Source: a bacterium (GTDB lineage Bacteria > UBA9089 > CG2-30-40-21 > SBAY01). Taken from it: DNA of 7,464 bases. Positions 35-7,463 of the stretch are shown piece by piece. The notes under the pieces were generated by a model, which saw only the letters and a list, made by a program, of their open reading frames with translations, was not told the DNA's origin and ran no database searches. The stretch's first letter is position 1, and each line of letters begins with the position of its first letter. Where the stretch lies: positions 1 to 7,464 of the forward strand of contig JBFLYA010000184.1 in the NCBI GenBank assembly GCA_040757115.1, written 5' to 3'. Position numbers and translations under genes: made by a program.

Positions 35-78
35 AATATGTGTTCTAAACCAGAGGATACGAGTCTGTGGATACTATA

Positions 79-134
79 CTAATTCGCTAATCTCTAATTC
101 ACTAATTCGCTATTTTCAGGGGAAACGTTCATGC
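79..134. repeat. CTAATTCG octamer/heptamer array with ATTTTCAGG tail
   Basis: Four units follow each other: CTAATTCG (79-86), CTAATCT (87-93), CTAATTCA (94-101) and CTAATTCG (102-109). A fifth, CTATTTT, merges into a tail reading ATTTTCAGG-GG-AAAC (112-126) and on to CATGC (130-134). The same tail closes the CCCGAGT array at 227-280, so array and tail look like parts of one composite repeat type. No coding content is supported here. Confidence 0.65.
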
Positions 135-198
135 CCACAGAGAGTGGACACAAAGGAAGATGAAAATGGGTTGGATGGTTTGATGGTTCAGGTGAAAT

Positions 199-212
199 CA
201 GGCTGAAGCCTG
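199..212. repeat. REP-like hairpin CAGGCT-GA-AGCCTG
   Basis: A perfect 6-bp inverted repeat, CAGGCT (199-204) and AGCCTG (207-212), with a 2-base centre is followed by CGGCTACC. The shape and the isolated non-coding position resemble small palindromic extragenic repeats. No T-tract follows it, so it is not a terminator. Only one copy is present in the window. Confidence 0.4.
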
Positions 213-226
213 CGGCTACCAGCCTT

Positions 227-280
227 CCCGAGTCCCGAACCCCGAGTCCCGAGTCCCGATTTTCAGGATAAACATCCATC
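227..280. repeat. CCCGAGT heptamer array with ATTTTCAGG tail
   Basis: There are four exact-length heptamers, CCCGAGT (227-233), CCCGAAC (234-240), CCCGAGT (241-247) and CCCGAGT (248-254). A partial fifth unit, CCCGATT, runs into ATTTTCAGG-AT-AAAC (259-273) and on to CCATC. The tail matches the one at 112-134 at about three quarters of positions, although the two arrays are unrelated in sequence. The reverse strand can be read as a short open frame through this repeat, but nothing supports a protein. Confidence 0.7.
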
Positions 281-345
281 TCTTTAAGTTTTTACTTCTA
301 CAGTTTCATCCGTGTCCATCTGTGGCTGAATAGCTACGAAAAAAT

Positions 346-352
346 AAGGGAG
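346..352 (+). promoter_or_regulatory. Ribosome binding site of aspS
   Basis: AAGGGAG lies 8 bases before the ATG at 361 and supports that start. No convincing -35/-10 pair was found between the upstream repeats and this site, so the aspS promoter is unassigned. No T-box leader motif is visible either. Confidence 0.7.
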
Positions 353-360
353 TAATCTAT

Positions 361-2118
361 ATGAAAAGAACTCATACTAATGGCGAATTACGACTTAAAG
401 ATGAAAATAAACAGGTTACATTGCTTGGCTGGGTCAACCGTCGACGGGACCACGGCGGATTGATATTTATTGACCTGCGAGACCGCGAAGGAATTACTCA
501 AATTGTATTTAATCCTGAAATAGATGAGATTTCTCATGCCCAGGCTCATAACCTAAGACCTGAATTTGTCATTGGCATCCATGGCTATGTCAGACCAAGA
601 CCTAAAGGCACGGCGAACCCTAATTTACCTACGGGTGAGATTGAGGTTATTGCCAATCATCTTGAGATTATTAATCCTTCTAAAACACCACCTTTTTTAA
701 TCGATGAGACGATAAATGTCTCAGAAGATACAAGATTAAAATATAGATTTTTAGACCTGCGCAGACCTTCTTTACAAAAAAACCTTATTCTGAGACATAA
801 AATATATCAGGCAACTCGAAAATATCTTGATGAGCAAGGATTTATTGAGGTAGAAACACCAATGCTCATTAAAAGCACACCAGAAGGGGCACGGGATTAT
901 TTAGTTCCCAGTCGTGTCAATCCAGGTAAGTTTTATGCCTTACCTCAATCCCCACAACTATTTAAACAAATTCTAATGTGTGCCGGATATGATAAATATT
1001 TTCAGATTGCCAAATGTTTTCGTGATGAAGACCTGCGGGCAGACCGCCAACCAGAATTTACGCAGGTTGATATAGAAATGTCGTTTATTGATGAAGAGGA
1101 TGTTTTTGAGGTCATCGAAGGGTTTATTGCCACGATATTTAAAGTTGGACTTGATTTAGATGTCCCAATTCCCTTTAAAAGAATTACCTTTAAAGAGGCG
1201 ATGGATAAATATGGCAAGGATAGTCCGGATGTTCGCTTTGGCTTAGAGTTAGTGGATATTACTGATCTGGCTAAGAAGAGTAAATTCCAGGTTTTTTCAA
1301 AAACCGTTGCTGGGAAAGGGCAGGTCAAAGGAATTAAAGTTCCAAAACCTGATTTTTCAAGAACTGACCTGGACTTTTTGACCTCTTTTGTCAGTATCTA
1401 TCGAGCAAAAGGACTTGCCTGGTTTAAGGTCAAAGAAAAAACGCTGGAATCATCAATTGCTAAGTTTTTCAGTGAAGAAGAACAGATGGCGATTATTGAC
1501 CGATTTAAAGCAGATACGGATGATTTCCTGTTATTTGTCGCAGATACTCCAAAGGTTGTTGCCGATAGTCTGGCTAATTTGAGATTACATCTGGCAGATA
1601 AATTTAATTTAATTCCTCAAGAATTTAATTTTATCTGGGTAGTCGATGCCCCATTAGTTGAATATGATGATGAAGAAAAAAGATATGTCGCCGTCCATCA
1701 TCCATTTACCTCACCAAAGGAAGAAGACTATCCATTAATCGAGACTAATCCTGGCCAGGTTCGTGCAAGGGCTTATGACCTGGTTTTAAATGGGATAGAG
1801 ATAGGTGGTGGTTCAATCAGGATTCATCGCCGGGATATTCAAGAGCGGGTATTCAAATTATTGAAGATAGAAGAAAATGAAGCAAAAGAGAAATTTGGCT
1901 TTTTATTAGAGGCATTAGAATATGGCGCCCCGCCACACGGCGGGATTGCCTTTGGATTGGATAGATTATTACGGTTAATGGTTGGTGCTGACTCAATCCG
2001 CGAGGTAATTGCCTTCCCTAAAACACAAAGTGCTACCTGTTTGATGACCGATGCCCCATTTGAAGTATCCAATAAACAGTTGAAAGAATTAAGTATTGAA
2101 GTCAGACCCCACGAATAA
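361..2118 (+). CDS. aspS: Aspartate--tRNA(Asp/Asn) ligase, bacterial type, probably non-discriminating
   Basis: Class II cytosolic synthetase that charges tRNA-Asp with aspartate. The 585 residues match the usual bacterial length (about 590). Order: OB-fold anticodon-binding domain (about 1-105), then a catalytic core interrupted by the bacterial GAD domain (about 290-410). Visible marks are TPEGARDYLVPSR leading to QSPQLFKQ (196-203), motif 2 FRDEDLRADRQPEFTQ (220-235, with R221), GGGSIRIH, and motif 3 GLDRL (R535). In the anticodon domain, RRRDHGG puts His at 31 and RPRPKG puts Gly at 83. E. coli, which is discriminating, has Leu30 and Lys at the matching places, whereas His and Gly are linked to non-discriminating enzymes that also make Asp-tRNA-Asn for GatCAB. 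That last step is inference. Start is set by AAGGGAG 8 bases upstream. A glgA promoter begins 2 bases after the stop, and a tRNA-Asp gene lies about 3.8 kb downstream. Confidence 0.97.
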   Translation: MKRTHTNGELRLKDENKQVTLLGWVNRRRDHGGLIFIDLRDREGITQIVFNPEIDEISHAQAHNLRPEFVIGIHGYVRPRPKGTANPNLPTGEIEVIANHLEIINPSKTPPFLIDETINVSEDTRLKYRFLDLRRPSLQKNLILRHKIYQATRKYLDEQGFIEVETPMLIKSTPEGARDYLVPSRVNPGKFYALPQSPQLFKQILMCAGYDKYFQIAKCFRDEDLRADRQPEFTQVDIEMSFIDEEDVFEVIEGFIATIFKVGLDLDVPIPFKRITFKEAMDKYGKDSPDVRFGLELVDITDLAKKSKFQVFSKTVAGKGQVKGIKVPKPDFSRTDLDFLTSFVSIYRAKGLAWFKVKEKTLESSIAKFFSEEEQMAIIDRFKADTDDFLLFVADTPKVVADSLANLRLHLADKFNLIPQEFNFIWVVDAPLVEYDDEEKRYVAVHHPFTSPKEEDYPLIETNPGQVRARAYDLVLNGIEIGGGSIRIHRRDIQERVFKLLKIEENEAKEKFGFLLEALEYGAPPHGGIAFGLDRLLRLMVGADSIREVIAFPKTQSATCLMTDAPFEVSNKQLKELSIEVRPHE

Positions 2119-2119
2119 C

Positions 2120-2148
2120 TTGACTTTTATTTTTGTCTATGGTATATT
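2120..2148 (+). promoter_or_regulatory. Sigma-70-type promoter for glgA-gltX-purN
   Basis: TTGACT (2120-2125) and TATATT (2143-2148) are separated by exactly 17 bases, close to the housekeeping consensus. The element starts 2 bases after the aspS stop and lies 31 bases before the glgA ATG, so transcription would begin at about 2155 and leave a very short leader. Read-through from aspS is also possible because no terminator is seen between the genes. Confidence 0.7.
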
Positions 2149-2179
2149 TATTAAAACTTTAAAAAAGGAGTGAAAGAAA

Positions 2180-3643
2180 ATGAAACCGAAATTAAAAGTA
2201 ATAATGGTTTCACCAGAGGTAGTTCCATTTGCTAAAACAGGTGGATTAGCTGATGTTGTTGGATCTCTGCCATTAGCATTAACTAAATTAGGATGTGAGG
2301 TGCGAATTGTCCTGCCCAAATATAAAATGGTGGAAGAGTCTGAATTTAACCTGTTAGATATTGATAAGGAAGTAACCTTTAAGGTAGGTGAGACTCTTCA
2401 GAAAGCAAAAATTTTCTCCACCAAGGTCGCAGGAGTGATTACTGTTTATTTCCTTGAACATGAATATTATAACCGTGATGGACTTTATGGGACAACTGAA
2501 GAAGGGGATTATAAAGATAATCTTGAGAGATTTACTTTCTTTTGTGGTGGAACATTAGAATTACTTAAAACGATAGAATATAAACCGCAAGTTATCCATT
2601 GTCATGATTGGCAGACAGGATTAATTCCGGTGTATTTAAAAACATTGTATCAGGATGACCCGTTTTTTGAAGGGGTAAAAACCATCTTTACTATTCATAA
2701 TTTAGCCTATCAAGGTATATTTTCCAAAGATGAATTTCCAATAACAGGTCTGGATAAAAAATTGTTCACCCCGGATAGGTTAGAATTCTGGGATAAGTTA
2801 AATATCCTGAAAGGGGCTTTGATCGATGCAGATATGTTAAGTACCGTTAGTAAAGGTTATGCTCAGGAGATAATGACGACAGAATATGGTTGTGGACTGG
2901 AGGGAGTATTAATCGAAAGAAAGGATAATCTTTATGGTGTAGTTAATGGTTTAGATTATCAAGAATGGGACCCGACTATGGATAAAGAAATTACATTAGG
3001 TTACGATATTAATACGATTAGTCGGAAAGCGAAGAATAAAAAAACACTTCAGCAAGAAAATAATTTACCCGTTGATAGTGAAGTTCCATTAATAGGGATG
3101 ATTACAAGATTAGCCCCACAAAAAGGACTGGATATTTTAGCTGAGATACTGGATGAATTGATGGCGTTGAATATCCAGTTTGTGTTGTTAGGCACAGGTG
3201 ATGCGAAATACCATATAAAAATGGAAGAAATTAAAGAGAAATATCCAGATAAAGCAAGCATTCATCTCACATTTGACCCACCGTTAGCCAAGAAAATATA
3301 TGCTGGTGCAGATATGTTTTTAATGCCATCTAAATATGAACCCTGTGGTTTAGGACAACTTATTAGCCTTAGATACGGCACCATCCCTATTGTTCGGGCA
3401 ACGGGTGGTTTGAAAGATACAATTACTAATTTTGACCCGCAACGCAAAATAGGAAATGGTTTTGTCTTCGAGGAATATACATCTGAGGCATTACTTTCAA
3501 TCATCAAAGAAGCAGTAAATGTTTTTTGTAACGATAAAGAATCCTGGAGAAGATTGATTTTAAATGGTATGAGTGTGGATTTCTCCTGGGAATACTCGGC
3601 AAAAGAATATATTGAATTGTATGAAAAAGCAATGCAGAAATAA
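2180..3643 (+). CDS. glgA: Glycogen synthase, GT5 family (ADP-glucose type)
   Basis: Adds glucose from a nucleotide sugar, normally ADP-glucose in bacteria, to the non-reducing end of an alpha-1,4-glucan, in the cytoplasm. The 487 residues fit the bacterial GT5 length (about 480). The N-terminal Rossmann half opens with VSPEVVPFAKTGGLADV, the KxGGL substrate loop (K19). The C-terminal half has TRLAPQKGLD, placing Arg310 and Lys315 where E. coli has its essential R300/K305, and SKYEPCGLGQL with Glu387 (E. coli E377), then GTIPIVRATGGLKDT. All key residues are present. AAGGAG (2165-2170) lies 9 bases upstream of the ATG. It has its own promoter and is followed after 27 bases by gltX, so it probably heads a glgA-gltX-purN transcript. 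No other glg gene is visible here; donor choice is inferred from the family. Confidence 0.96.
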   Translation: MKPKLKVIMVSPEVVPFAKTGGLADVVGSLPLALTKLGCEVRIVLPKYKMVEESEFNLLDIDKEVTFKVGETLQKAKIFSTKVAGVITVYFLEHEYYNRDGLYGTTEEGDYKDNLERFTFFCGGTLELLKTIEYKPQVIHCHDWQTGLIPVYLKTLYQDDPFFEGVKTIFTIHNLAYQGIFSKDEFPITGLDKKLFTPDRLEFWDKLNILKGALIDADMLSTVSKGYAQEIMTTEYGCGLEGVLIERKDNLYGVVNGLDYQEWDPTMDKEITLGYDINTISRKAKNKKTLQQENNLPVDSEVPLIGMITRLAPQKGLDILAEILDELMALNIQFVLLGTGDAKYHIKMEEIKEKYPDKASIHLTFDPPLAKKIYAGADMFLMPSKYEPCGLGQLISLRYGTIPIVRATGGLKDTITNFDPQRKIGNGFVFEEYTSEALLSIIKEAVNVFCNDKESWRRLILNGMSVDFSWEYSAKEYIELYEKAMQK

Positions 3644-3670
3644 AAAAAATAGAACAAGGGTATAGAGAAA

Positions 3671-5083
3671 ATGGTTCGAGTAAGATTTGCTCCGGCACCA
3701 ACAGGATATTTGCATCTTGGAGGCGCCAGAACAGCTCTTTTTAATTGGCTTTTTGTTAAACAACAGCAGGGTAAATTCATTTTACGCATAGAAGATACGG
3801 ATGTTAAACGGTCAACTGATGAGAGTGTAAATGCCATCCTCGACAGTCTGAAGTGGCTTGGCATCACCTGGGATGAGGGACCTTATTTTCAATCCCAAAG
3901 AACCCATATCTATCAAGAGTATGCAAAGAAATTATTACAGGATAATCAAGCATATTATTGTTATTGTTCCCCATCTGAATTAGAGATTCTTCGTAAAAAG
4001 GCAACTGGGGAGGCGCCAGGATATGATGGTCGGTGTAGAAACCTGTCCCCAACTCAGCGTCAGGAATATGAATCTTCTGGCAGAAAACCCACGATTAGAT
4101 TTAAATCGCCATCTGGACTAACTCAAGTAAATGATTTAATTCGAGGTAAAGTGTCTTTTGATAATGCCTTGTTTGGTGATTTTATCATTTTTAAATCAGA
4201 TGGGATGCCAACTTATAATTTTGCCTGCATCATAGATGATGCCTTGATGGAGATTACCCATGTCATTCGTGGTGAAGACCATATTTCTAACACCCCCCGC
4301 CAGATTTTATTATATCAAGCATTAGGATTTAAAATACCAGTATTTGCTCATCTACCCTTGATTTTGGGATTGGATAAAACGCCATTGAGTAAACGACATG
4401 GAGATGTTGCGATTGAACATTACCGGCAAGAAGGCTATTTGCCAGAGGCACTTATGAATTATCTCGCCCTTTTAGGTTGGTCAACGCCGCAAAGTCAGCA
4501 AATCTTTTCTAAAGAAGAATTATTAATAAAATTCTCCATAGACCGTGTCAGTAAAAACCCCGCTATCTTTGATTTAGAAAAACTACGCTGGTTAAATGGG
4601 GAATATATCAGAAGATTAGATATAGATTCACTGACCGTGTTATGTTGGGAATACTTAAATAAAATTCGAAATTCGAAATTTGAAATTCGAAATTTGAAAT
4701 TTAAAGAGATAGTAAGACTTTTTCAGGAACGGATAAAGACACTTTCAGATTTTGTTAAACAAGCAGAATTTTTCTTTGTGAACAGCCCTAAATATCACCC
4801 ATCTGCCGTTGAGCAAATCCTGATGAAAGACGGCGTCCGTCAAATTTTAGAACAGGTAAAAGATAGATTGGTTCAATTAGAACCGTTTGATACGAATTCT
4901 ATTGAGAAAACTATTCGTGAATTAGCCGACCAGCTAAAAATAAAAGCCTCAGACATCATCCATCCTTTACGAGTAGCATTAACTGGAGATAAAGTTAGTC
5001 CAGGATTGTTTGAAGTAGTCGCTTTATTAGGAAAAGAAAAAGTCCAGGAAAGACTCATTAAAAGAAGGTGGGAAAATGGATAA
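3671..5083 (+). CDS. gltX: Glutamate--tRNA ligase (class I GluRS)
   Basis: Cytosolic synthetase that charges tRNA-Glu. The 470 residues fit the bacterial family. The catalytic domain starts with VRFAPAPTG and HLGG (15-18, the HIGH motif with Leu in place of Ile/Val). A zinc-type knuckle follows: Cys97, Cys99 and Cys122, with Asn124 where E. coli has the fourth ligand His. Next come VIRGEDHISNTPRQ and the KMSKS equivalent DKTPLSKRHG (235-244). The helical anticodon-binding region ends in PLRVALTG and GLFEVVALLGKE. Residues 331-345 are encoded by a 7-bp tandem DNA repeat yet keep the frame and roughly the normal linker length. The AAGGG at 3656-3660 is a modest ribosome site, 10 bases from the ATG. 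The last 8 bases overlap purN. Discriminating versus tRNA-Gln-charging specificity cannot be read from this alone. Confidence 0.96.
   Translation: MVRVRFAPAPTGYLHLGGARTALFNWLFVKQQQGKFILRIEDTDVKRSTDESVNAILDSLKWLGITWDEGPYFQSQRTHIYQEYAKKLLQDNQAYYCYCSPSELEILRKKATGEAPGYDGRCRNLSPTQRQEYESSGRKPTIRFKSPSGLTQVNDLIRGKVSFDNALFGDFIIFKSDGMPTYNFACIIDDALMEITHVIRGEDHISNTPRQILLYQALGFKIPVFAHLPLILGLDKTPLSKRHGDVAIEHYRQEGYLPEALMNYLALLGWSTPQSQQIFSKEELLIKFSIDRVSKNPAIFDLEKLRWLNGEYIRRLDIDSLTVLCWEYLNKIRNSKFEIRNLKFKEIVRLFQERIKTLSDFVKQAEFFFVNSPKYHPSAVEQILMKDGVRQILEQVKDRLVQLEPFDTNSIEKTIRELADQLKIKASDIIHPLRVALTGDKVSPGLFEVVALLGKEKVQERLIKRRWENG
4662..4703 (+). repeat. AAATTYG heptamer array inside gltX
   Basis: Six consecutive 7-bp units read AAATTCG, AAATTCG, AAATTTG, AAATTCG, AAATTTG, AAATTTA. 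Three times seven is 21 bases, so the array encodes a 7-residue amino-acid repeat (IRNSKFE then IRNLKFK, residues 332-345) without breaking the frame. It sits in the variable linker of the helical anticodon-binding region of GluRS, not in a catalytic segment. Its period matches the non-coding arrays elsewhere in the window. Confidence 0.85.
5064..5072 (+). promoter_or_regulatory. Ribosome binding site of purN inside the gltX end
   Basis: GAAGGTGGG lies within the last codons of gltX, 3 bases before the ATG at 5076 (7 bases counted from the GAAGG core). The 8-base overlap (ATG 5076, gltX TAA ending 5083) suggests translational coupling of the two genes. Confidence 0.6.
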
Positions 5084-5687
5084 ATTGAAGATAGGAATTT
5101 TAGCCTCAGGTAGAGGGTCTAATTTACAGGCGATTATTGACGCCGTTGAGTTAGGGAATCTTTCGGCTGATATTGCCATAGTCATTAGTGATAACAAAGA
5201 TGCCTATGCCTTGATTCGGGCACAAAAGTATGGAATTAAAACACTTTTCCTTGACCCAAAAGGATTTAGCAGAGAGGATTATGACCGAAAGGTAGTTGAG
5301 GTTTTACAGGAAGAGAATATTGAATTAGTAGTCCTGGCGGGATTTATGCGAATTATCACCCCTTATTTTGTTAATGCTTACAAAAACAAAATTATGAACA
5401 TTCACCCGGCGTTACTTCCATCTTTCCTTGGATTACACGGACAGCGACAGGCAATAGATTATGGTGTAAAGATTTCGGGTGCAACAGTACATTTTGTTGA
5501 GGAAGGCTGTGATACAGGACCGATAATTTTACAAGCCGCTGTGAATGTTGAAAATGATGATACCGAAGAAACTTTATCTGCTCGAATTTTAGAACAAGAA
5601 CATAAGATTTATCCGCAGGCTATCCAGCTTTATGCTGAGGGAAAATTAGAGATTATTGGGAGAAAAGTAAGGATAAAACAAAAATAA
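5076..5687 (+). CDS. purN: Phosphoribosylglycinamide formyltransferase (GAR transformylase)
   Basis: Transfers a formyl group from 10-formyl-tetrahydrofolate to glycinamide ribonucleotide, the third step of purine synthesis, in the cytoplasm. The 203 residues compare with 212 in E. coli. It opens with the nucleotide-binding loop ILASGRGSNLQAI (8-19). The catalytic triad is complete: Asn108 and His110 in MNIHPALLPSF, and Asp146 in GCDTGPII (E. coli N106, H108, D144). VVLAGFMRI before the catalytic loop is also typical. The gene overlaps gltX by 8 bases and so is very likely translated from the same message. No other pur gene is visible in the window. No terminator is seen; the tRNA promoter begins 3 bases after the stop. 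Confidence 0.96.
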   Translation: MDKLKIGILASGRGSNLQAIIDAVELGNLSADIAIVISDNKDAYALIRAQKYGIKTLFLDPKGFSREDYDRKVVEVLQEENIELVVLAGFMRIITPYFVNAYKNKIMNIHPALLPSFLGLHGQRQAIDYGVKISGATVHFVEEGCDTGPIILQAAVNVENDDTEETLSARILEQEHKIYPQAIQLYAEGKLEIIGRKVRIKQK

Positions 5688-5690
5688 TAC

Positions 5691-5719
5691 TTGACGATTT
5701 AGAGATTTTATGGCATAAT
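5691..5719 (+). promoter_or_regulatory. Sigma-70-type promoter for the tRNA genes
   Basis: TTGACG (5691-5696) and CATAAT (5714-5719) are 17 bases apart. The pair starts 3 bases after the purN stop and points at the two tRNA genes. The expected start at about 5725 coincides with the first bases of a long hairpin, so the primary transcript would begin in a stable stem. Confidence 0.7.
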
Positions 5720-5723
5720 GGAG

Positions 5724-5767
5724 AGTAGAGAGTAGTTTGACGAAGATATCAAACTCTACTCTCTACT
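5724..5767 (+). repeat. Long hairpin at the 5' end of the tRNA transcript
   Basis: The left arm 5724-5740 pairs with 5749-5767 to form 17 base pairs around an 8-base loop (5741-5748), interrupted only by a 2-base CT bulge on the right side (5756-5757). It is followed by more CTACT repeats and no T-tract, so it is not a terminator. It could be a structure removed when the tRNA precursor is cut, or a by-product of opposed copies of the heptamer. Confidence 0.7.
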
Positions 5768-5797
5768 GACTACTGACTACTCTCTACTAACTATTTA
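5756..5797. repeat. CTACTNN heptamer array
   Basis: Six heptamers follow without gaps: CTACTCT, CTACTGA, CTACTGA, CTACTCT, CTACTAA and CTATTTA. The left arm of the preceding hairpin carries the same heptamer in the opposite orientation (AGAGTAG twice). The array ends 7 bases before the tRNA-Val gene and lies inside the predicted leader. Units are too short and there are no spacers, so this is not a CRISPR array. Confidence 0.75.
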
Positions 5798-5884: not shown

Positions 5885-5907
5885 TGGTAACTGGTGAATA
5901 GTTACCA
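5885..5907. repeat. Hairpin between the two tRNA genes
   Basis: TGGTAACT (5885-5892) and AGTTACCA (5900-5907) form a perfect 8-bp stem with a 7-base loop in the 48-base spacer between tRNA-Val and tRNA-Asp. The surrounding bases (TGGTAAC, TGGTGAA, TAGTTAC, CAATTAC) again fall in steps of seven. No T-tract follows, so transcription probably continues into tRNA-Asp. Confidence 0.6.
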
Positions 5908-5927
5908 ATTACCACTTATCAAACAAT

Positions 5928-6163: not shown

Positions 6164-7090
6164 ATGAAAATATCCAATCCTCATGATGTCTTCTTTAAAG
6201 AGGTCTTTTCTGATAAAGAAAGAGTTGTTGATTTCATCAACTCTACTTTACCTGAGGAGTTGAAGAAAAATCTTGACCTATCAACCCTAGTGTTAGATAA
6301 TAATTCTTATATCGATGAGGAACTAAAGGAGAATTTCGCGGATATAGTTTATAATTGTCTCTACAGTGGCAAGGTCAATATCAAGATTTCACTTTTATTT
6401 GAGCATAAGAGTAAGCCAGTGAAATATCCACATTTACAGCTTCTCAGGTATATGCTGAAGATATGGGAGAGGAATATCAAGCAGAAAGAACAGTTAATTC
6501 CCATAGTTCCGCTTATCTTTTATCATGGTAAGCAGAGGTGGGAATTAAGAAAGTTGAGTGATTATTTTGAGGGAATAGATGAGGTATTGAAGGGATATTT
6601 ACCCGAGTTTAATTATTTATTGACCGATTTATCCTGTTATAGTGATGAGGAGTTAAAAGGGAGGGTATTTATAAATGAAGCCTTAAAGGTTTCATTATTG
6701 GTATTGAAGAATATCTTTGATAAGAAGAGATTGAGGGAGCATATAGAGGGATTTTTTGCGATAGGGAAGATGTATTATGAAGAGGAACGAGGGTTAAAGT
6801 TTTTAGAAGGGGTAATTCGGTATATTTATAGTAGCACAGAGATTAAGCCAGAAGAGGTGATAGAGGCGGTTAAAAGTGTTTCTGAAAAAGGAGGTGAGGT
6901 AGCAATGACTACAGCTGTGAAATTAAGAGAGCAGGGATTACAGCAAGGATTACAGCAGGGATTACAGCAGGGTGCGTATAATAAAGCGGTAGAGACTGCT
7001 AAGTATTTGTATAGTAAGGGAGTTGATTTAGAGCTAATTGCTGAAGCAACAAAATTGTCACTTGATGAGTTGAAACGGCTTATCAATTAA
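6164..7090 (+). CDS. Rpn family recombination-promoting nuclease / putative transposase (PD-(D/E)XK)
   Basis: 308 residues resembling the Rpn/YhgA-like group (formerly Transposase_31). E. coli RpnA is a DNA endonuclease that raises RecA-independent recombination, and some Rpn proteins act as phage-defence toxins. Visible here: the N-terminal family start NPHDVFFKEVFSD (5-17), a nuclease core with Asp60 (FADIVY) and Glu80-x-Lys82 (LLFEHKSKP), and the conserved PLIFYHGK (116-123). The middle is helical, and the C-terminus has three GLQQ units (258-269) and a final helical domain of about 40 residues. The catalytic set looks intact. It has its own strong promoter and AGGAGG site. No transposase partner, target duplication or inverted ends directly flank it. 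An internal in-frame start at 6905 may make the last 61 residues as a separate protein. Whether this copy cuts DNA or defends the cell is inference. Confidence 0.88.
   Translation: MKISNPHDVFFKEVFSDKERVVDFINSTLPEELKKNLDLSTLVLDNNSYIDEELKENFADIVYNCLYSGKVNIKISLLFEHKSKPVKYPHLQLLRYMLKIWERNIKQKEQLIPIVPLIFYHGKQRWELRKLSDYFEGIDEVLKGYLPEFNYLLTDLSCYSDEELKGRVFINEALKVSLLVLKNIFDKKRLREHIEGFFAIGKMYYEEERGLKFLEGVIRYIYSSTEIKPEEVIEAVKSVSEKGGEVAMTTAVKLREQGLQQGLQQGLQQGAYNKAVETAKYLYSKGVDLELIAEATKLSLDELKRLIN
6888..6897 (+). promoter_or_regulatory. Internal Shine-Dalgarno within the Rpn-family gene
   Basis: AAGGAGGTGA is fully complementary to the usual 16S rRNA 3' end. It lies inside the coding region, with 10 bases between GGAGG and the in-frame ATG at 6905. 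The overlapping GAGGTAGCAATG (6896-6907) repeats exactly the 12 bases around the main start (6155-6166). Confidence 0.6.
6905..7090 (+). CDS. Possible intragenic small protein (C-terminal 61 residues of the Rpn gene)
   Basis: Starting at Met248 of the long protein, in frame, a product of 61 residues would begin MTTAVKLREQG. It would contain all three GLQQ units and the final helical domain, ending DELKRLIN. The evidence is the optimal internal ribosome site 6888-6897 and the 12-base match to the main start. In E. coli Rpn genes, small proteins made from internal starts and matching the C-terminus have been reported to block toxicity of the full-length protein; the same role here is inference. 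No clear internal promoter was found: TATATT at 6821-6826 has no good -35 partner. The small protein could come from the full message. It could also not be made at all, because the match to a ribosome site may be dictated by the GGEVAM codons. Confidence 0.45.
   Translation: MTTAVKLREQGLQQGLQQGLQQGAYNKAVETAKYLYSKGVDLELIAEATKLSLDELKRLIN
6935..6970 (+). repeat. 12-bp direct repeat encoding GLQQ
   Basis: GGATTACAGCAA (6935-6946), then two copies of GGATTACAGCAG (6947-6958 and 6959-6970), encode GLQQ three times. Units differ at only one base, which indicates recent expansion or ongoing conversion. Because the unit is four codons long, gain or loss keeps the frame and would only change the length of the linker before the C-terminal domain. 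Confidence 0.9.
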
Positions 7091-7226: not shown

Positions 7227-7463
7227 GTAACCGTTCAGGCTATATATCAAAAGTGTAAGAAAGGGGATAAGGAGATAAGAGTGATATGGAGATAAGATAA
7301 TAGAAATAGATTGAAATTTATAGAAATAGGTAGAAATTGATTGTGGAAAACAACAAATTTCCATAAATTTCTATTAGTTTCTATTAATTTCAATTTTTTT
7401 AATAATATCTCCCTATCTCCTTAATCTCCACATCTCCTTTTGTTACACCACCTGAACGCTTAC
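7227..7463. mobile_element. MITE-like palindromic element, about 237 bp
   Basis: The ends GTAACCGTTCAGG (7227-7239) and CCTGAACGCTTAC (7451-7463) are inverted copies matching at 12 of 13 positions. Inside, GTGTAA (7253-7258) faces TTACAC (7443-7448). A GGAGATAA-rich block (7263-7302) faces ATCTCC units (7407-7439), and TAGAAAT units (7301-7336) face ATTTCTA units (7358-7393). The arms close on TTGT/ACAA around a 5-base loop at 7345-7349. The element has no coding capacity. Small size, inverted ends and near-complete self-pairing fit a non-autonomous element or a giant extragenic palindrome. A target duplication cannot be judged because the window ends one base after the right end. Confidence 0.6.

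Follow-up and report, generated by a model that had tools for sequence, protein, structure and literature searches.

The heptameric short tandem repeats (STRR) of filamentous cyanobacteria are degenerate 7-bp tandem repeats with several families per genome, and the same description fits the DNA of an uncultured bacterium discussed here, a window of 7,464 nucleotides that comprises the whole of contig JBFLYA010000184.1 of assembly GCA_040757115.1 and carries four unrelated tandem arrays with a period of 7 (or 7/8) bp. Heptamers are the most abundant class of long simple repeats in most genomes surveyed (PMC4679880, PMC4692102); these two papers attribute to Mrazek 2007 the suggestion that a 7-nt polymerase footprint is the reason, and one of them (PMC4692102) cites three such heptamers for Calothrix. 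Why 7 should be the favored tandem unit in bacteria is an old question for which there is only the footprint hypothesis, and the lineage described here makes it testable. In its genome a period of 7 bp is a genome-wide property that spans unrelated motifs, copy number changes by whole units between sister species, and different relatives carry different heptamers at the same positions in orthologous genes.

Materials and methods

The source draft genome (4.32 Mb in 462 contigs, the window being contig C184) is labeled G000, the genome of its sister species G001, and those of relatives G002–G014. Unit lengths were counted in 60 stretches from the larger contigs of G000 (1.15 Mb, 27% of the genome) as Tandem Repeats Finder (TRF) arrays with a score of at least 40, and were compared with an order-4 Markov shuffle. 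A stricter count of periods used exact lag runs of at least 13, reported per Mb, with 80 loci mostly from other phyla as an outside control. Lexicon counts are numbers of contigs bearing a triple repeat (x3) of a given heptamer. A first lexicon test grouped arrays whose flanks were similar; it was dropped, since degenerate array parts in those flanks had merged unrelated loci, and a coding-only version was used instead.

Results and discussion

Period of 7 bp across the genome

The initial annotation of the window held that its four arrays, which differ in sequence and are nearly constant in period, hint at one generating mechanism and not at chance, and that a sharp genome-wide peak at unit length 7, shared by many unrelated motifs, would support this. 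TRF recovers all four arrays (Table 1), and the peak is there. The sample contains 751 TRF arrays compared with 67 in the shuffle; 156 of them have period 7 (none in the shuffle), and the harmonics 14 and 21 contribute a further 104 and 46. Period 8 is the second class (106 arrays) and consists mostly of arrays that mix 7- and 8-bp units and of a few elements that recur many times. Exact lag runs occur at 85 per Mb at lag 7, 12 at lag 8 and 0–4 at other lags up to 11, again with harmonics at 14 and 21, and the motifs behind the lag-7 peak are many and unrelated. The corresponding lag-7 values are 42 per Mb in G001, 6 per Mb in the control loci and 0 in the shuffle. The peak recurs in most of the relatives sampled; its density within the phylum is uneven (high in G002, G003, G006 and G008, with G013 also rich in arrays), and no lag-7 heptamer array is present in 58 kb of G010. 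The shuffles and the other-phylum loci thus reject a chance origin. An assembly artefact can be rejected for the arrays in gltX, trpE and carB, because the separate assemblies of G000 and G001, whose proteins are 96–99% identical, agree on their sites. Further arrays in the window have units of 12 bp (6930–6972) and of 8, 10, 17 and 20 bp (in a hairpin at 7261–7439), so "nearly constant" fits the dominant class and not every repeat; the heptamer-like steps that had been pointed out at 5885–5914 are a small hairpin of the TTACCAR heptamer family, which is absent from the TRF list of arrays.

The settings of 309 arrays are varied: 31 lie in IS66-type miniature inverted-repeat transposable elements (MITEs), 33 beside the ATTTTCAGG modules of the cassettes described below, 53 within open reading frames (ORFs) of at least 200 codons, and 192 elsewhere between genes or in short ORFs. 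Inside ORFs, arrays of period 7 outnumber every other class, even though 7 is no multiple of 3. A reverse-complement partner lies within 300 bp of 119 of the 309 arrays (none when places are chosen at random, and 11 in a control with the array reversed but not complemented), and many arrays are therefore arms of hairpins.

Turnover in whole units and switching of motifs

Three of about 13 orthologous arrays differ between G000 and G001, by 7, 7 and 14 bp. A 134-kb alignment of the two genomes contains eight tandem-type indels of at least 4 bp, four of which are 7 bp, one 14 bp, two 4 bp and one 6 bp long. In this small sample copy number changes by whole units, as in genomes rich in heptameric simple sequence repeats, and the 7- and 14-bp differences between the sister species fit a single step size.

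The arrays also change in sequence at fixed positions. Array 3 of the window lies in the GltX linker between the catalytic (residues 1–307) and anticodon-binding (342–462) domains; at the same codons G001 has the same AAATTYG array as G000, G002 has AAAATCG and G003 has AAATTGG. The G002 and G003 arrays are equal in total length, in genes that are 88% identical to each other. The inter-domain linker of TrpE contains AAATCCG in G000 and G001, a mixture of AAATCCG and AAATTCA in G003, and AAAATCC around a hairpin in G002. Six clear motifs are found in the oligomerisation domain of CarB, namely ATTCAAA (G000 and G001), AAAATCG (G003), AATTGCG (G005), GGATTTC (G014), AATTGCA (G009) and AGTCAGA (G007); the arrays of G006 and G004 have decayed with period 7 still significant in a shuffle test, and by that test the CarB site of G008, G011 and G013 has no heptamer array. 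HdrA-like proteins provide two more switch sites, and in the gene at L050:8051 AAAATCC gives way to AAAATCA from G000 to G001. The queC gene is a mixed case, with heptamers in G000 and G001 and an in-frame CCCCCTTA hairpin repeat in G002 and G003.

In genes, the arrays are found in or close to linkers between domains, or else within an oligomerisation domain; those of gltX, carB and trpE are, as read, pure and without element ends. They illustrate how the linkers of essential enzymes can be rewritten again and again by a non-triplet repeat. The seven-residue repeat that they encode may help them to survive in putatively helical linkers; literature searches for array-encoded peptides found nothing. 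Two separate observations concern hdrA-like genes and queC. One HdrA-like ORF of 1536 amino acids (L036:3356–6672) contains at least four separate in-frame heptamer arrays, and the queC genes of G002 and G003 (L287 and L288) have a CCCCCTTAATAAAGGGGG hairpin repeat in frame at or beside the position of the G000/G001 heptamer array.

Lineage-specific heptamers

In the cases checked, the switched motifs at orthologous linkers match heptamers at unrelated loci of the same genome. AAAATCGx3 is present on 19 contigs of G002 and 7 of G003 and on none in eight other genomes. AAATTGGx3 is on 9 contigs of G002, 5 of G003 and 26 of G013, with none in the other seven, including G008, which belongs to the same genus as G013. 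AAATCCGx3 is on 4 contigs of G000, 2 of G001, 11 of G008, 29 of G013, 5 of G014 and 1 of G009, and on none in G002–G007, and TCCCGAGx3 is restricted among the 15 genomes to the single genus of G000 and G001. Twenty AAAATCG sites were read (18 in G002 and 2 in G003), several of them within conserved genes; their flanks are unrelated, with the exception of two pairs, one orthologous and the other paralogous, and of two matches of 21–25 bp.

We propose that heptamer arrays gain and lose units in steps of 7 bp, reach new places by transposition and by being copied from one array to another, and persist at permissive sites, an account that, taken whole, we consider evenly poised between right and wrong. 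Arrays would arise and alter their length by replication slippage or template switching with a preferred offset of 7 nt, and transposition of hairpin elements would carry them to new sites. Pure in-gene arrays would be copied from other arrays of the genome by short ectopic conversion or template switching, and such copying could give each lineage its list of heptamer words. Selection would purge arrays from all but the linkers between domains and the gaps between genes that tolerate them, and at such places one array could replace another. The 7-bp step, the unit changes, the transposition settings and the motif switches are observed; both the copying and the choice of 7 are steps that we infer.

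Local polymerase slippage alone, with a footprint of about 7 nt that favors 7-bp duplications everywhere and with each array independent in origin and drift, would explain the peak at 7 over unrelated motifs and contexts, the 7- and 14-bp indels, and the observation that coding motifs in G000 mostly differ from gene to gene. It does not predict that one heptamer should dominate many unrelated loci in one genus and be absent from the next, nor that fixed arrays should be carried by dispersed cassettes and MITEs, and we regard it as possible but doubtful. If unrelated sites change word together, local slippage is insufficient and some process that copies between arrays must exist. A more far-reaching version, in which a trans-acting process writes a lineage-specific heptamer at many unrelated sites (essential genes included) and rewrites the arrays when the word changes, such that dispersed arrays evolve in concert, seems to us unlikely.

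Cassettes, MITEs and hairpins

A module of the form ATTTTCAGG(A/G)GAAAC..CATG-stem-loop-stem-CACAAA..GATGAAAAT, 51–56 bp long, has 40 pattern matches in the G000 sample and the window, a few of them loose or truncated. The central stem of this ATTTTCA/TGAAAAT module covaries, with four pairs altered on both sides. Long head-to-tail runs in which the module alternates with short non-coding cassettes lie just 5′ of genes (L033, L029, L020 and L030) and look like a non-coding cassette array. Integron attC sites were considered and rejected; the module ends are ATTTTCA/TGAAAAT and not GTTRRRY/RYYYAAC core sites, and no search for an integron integrase was made. In the window, arrays 1 (CTAATTCG) and 2 (CCCGAGT) each form the 3′ end of such a cassette. 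Array 1 recurs with its flanks in L018, L019, L030, L033 and G001, where the cassette lies between glgA and gltX, and the CTAATTCG array looks identical across all copies seen; the array 2 type of cassette is also found in L015, L017, L020, L029 and L033. Module runs at L033:17860–18500 and on the minus strand of L029 and L020, alternating with short hairpin cassettes, finish with ATTTTCAGGAGAA where the following gene has its ribosome-binding site.

The 1.15 Mb contains 89 elements that share the ends of the window MITE (about 77 per Mb; L007–L066), and an exact 8-bp target duplication flanks 33 of the 89, with none of that length in the controls. The window MITE itself, whose own target duplication is unreadable as it ends at the contig end, has GTAA terminal inverted repeats and folds into a single long hairpin, the arms of which contain degenerate 7/8-bp steps. 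At G000:C277, ends that match those of the MITEs enclose an IS66 transposase pseudogene that has two stops. Between G000 and G001, MITEs of this type and concentric hairpin nests are cleanly present in one genome and absent from the other, and in the purN–tRNA-Val gap of G001, where the flanks are about 98% identical, a longer, 156-bp GGTAAYT/TTACCAR hairpin replaces GAGAGTA/CTCTACT. Concentric palindromes, each hairpin within the loop of the next and up to four or five layers deep, were seen at L210:6208–6578 and L022:3778–3992.

The arrays might accordingly be mere parts of hairpin transposons and cassettes, the period of 7 being a trait of a few old, much-copied elements. The 31 arrays in IS66-type MITEs and the 33 in ATTTTCA cassettes, the clean insertions with 8-bp target duplications that distinguish G000 from G001, and the identical copies of the CTAATTCG cassette all agree with this, but 53 arrays are inside ORFs, where those of gltX, carB and trpE lack element ends, and there are too many motifs, which moreover differ at orthologous sites; we think this explanation quite improbable. 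With respect to the single mechanism suggested by the initial annotation, the common 7-bp step stands, but the arrays were placed by several routes: arrays 1 and 2 are fixed in cassettes, some arrays are cargo of IS66-type MITEs, and others are pure in-gene arrays whose motif differs by species.

Points against the proposed account and remaining alternatives

Our proposal of stepwise turnover, transposition and copying has several points against it. Linkers with and without arrays are often nearly equal in length (CarB and GltX), which neither simple insertion nor slippage predicts. The identity of the CTAATTCG copies means that this array spread as a cassette, with no slippage. Arrays in unrelated coding genes of G000 share motifs in two pairs compared with 0.48 expected (n = 24), which is not significant, so the argument for copying between arrays comes from the cross-genome counts and from G002 and G013. 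Finally, the proposal names no enzyme or reaction.

Templated writing, in which a reverse transcriptase-like enzyme adds heptamers from a 7-nt template in the manner of telomerase, for instance in the repair of breaks, and the template differs from lineage to lineage, would suit a constant step with a lineage-specific word and the exchange of one array for another at the same site with little change in length. It fits poorly with the coexistence of many motifs within a genome; neither a candidate enzyme nor a template RNA turned up, although no search aimed at either was made, and an Rfam search of the window returned tRNAs and no other RNA family, which also led us to reject a known RNA family as the source of the arrays. 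We consider templated writing very unlikely. Least probable of all is that selection sets the in-gene period because a 7-bp repeat encodes a 7-residue periodic peptide suited to putative helical linkers, since intergenic arrays, which encode no peptide, are dominated by that period too, however well the linker and oligomerisation-domain positions and the prevalence in ORFs of a unit that is not a multiple of 3 might accord with it.

Other features of the window

The window contains aspS, a starch-synthase-like gene, gltX, purN, two tRNA genes and a PF04754 gene (Table 1). The last of these (YhgA-like; 6164–7090) includes the 12-bp repeat mentioned above, which encodes GLQQ repeats near the C terminus.

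Table 1 Arrays, hairpins and selected genes of the window
Feature	Position (bp)	Strand	Evidence and context
Array 1, CTAATTCG/CTAATCT/CTAATTCA, 7/8-bp units	78..112	+	TRF unit 8/7/8/8, score 42
Separator module ATTTTCAGGGGAAAC..CATG-stem-CACAAAGG..GATGAAAAT, covarying central stem	112..167	+	Pattern matches, stem covariation
Array 2, CCCGAGT	226..259	+	TRF period 7, score 54; abuts another ATTTTCAGG (259–267)
aspS (aspartyl-tRNA synthetase)	361..2118	+	Pfam PF00152, PF02938, PF01336; directly 3′ of arrays 1 and 2
gltX	3671..5083	+	Pfam PF00749 (1–307), PF19269 (342–462); array 3 within, in frame
Array 3, AAATTYG	4662..4701	+	TRF period 7, score 66; gltX codons 331–344
purN (formyl transferase)	5076..5687	+	Pfam PF00551
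Array 4, GAGAGTA/CTCTACT heptamer hairpin	5721..5788 (array part 5754–5788)	+	TRF period 7, score 42; fold z −3.6; between purN and tRNA-Val
Short hairpin (GGTAACTGGTGAATAGTTACCAATTACC), GGTAACT/TTACCAR heptamer family, between two tRNA genes	5885..5914	+	Read from sequence
IS66-type MITE, 237 bp, reaches contig end	7227..7463	+	Fold z −7.7; ends GTAACCGTTCAGG / CCTGAACGCTTAC

Comparison with known heptamer repeats

The likeness to STRR raised by the initial annotation holds for the behavior of the repeats. The host is not cyanobacterial as judged by GltX, for which the best matches in the named collection, at 54–59% identity, come from metagenome-assembled genomes of other phyla, none labeled cyanobacterial; in contrast to STRR, the present arrays belong to a different lineage, probably have different motifs, and occur within genes and in MITEs and cassettes. 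IS66-family MITEs are matched in the GTAA ends, the 8-bp target duplications and the presence in the genome of an IS66 transposase remnant that has these ends, but the cargo here is concentric hairpins, made partly of heptamers.

An excess of heptamers is not confined to cyanobacteria (PMC4692102, PMC4679880). The TAACTGA repeats of Beggiatoaceae, cyanobacteria and Bacteroidetes are likewise direct heptamer repeats at many loci, often just 5′ of genes, but they are one motif for which related heptamers are rare (PMC4679880), whereas here the lexicon is large and changes. The GGGNATC-type repeats of Xanthomonas and Nostoc resemble ours in being heptamers, mainly intergenic, with shared gene neighborhoods and with variation in length and sequence among related species (PMC4692102). 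They are a single G-rich family able to form G-quadruplexes (PMC4692102), whereas here there is a variety of motifs, most of them rich in AT and many paired in hairpins, with C/G tracts only in arrays of the CCCGAGT/CCTCTGC type, so that most motifs lack the G-rich unit and four G-tracts of such structures.

This lineage lends itself to asking why the unit is 7 because it combines a high density of arrays and available related genomes with sites in gltX, carB, trpE and hdrA that are natural recorders of turnover. An excess of heptamers in bacteria is already known; switching of motifs and a lineage-specific lexicon are not described in the literature cited here (PMC4679880, PMC4692102). The closest parallel is with the heptameric long simple sequence repeats of the type described by Mrazek, in which, as those two papers present them, 7 is the top unit class, the repeats are scattered over phyla, and slippage over a 7-nt footprint is proposed. 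The G000 repeats share the over-representation of 7-bp units relative to other unit lengths and to a shuffle; they differ from that type, as it is presented there, in that 7 dominates even in ORFs, many motifs coexist, and genera differ at the same gene positions.

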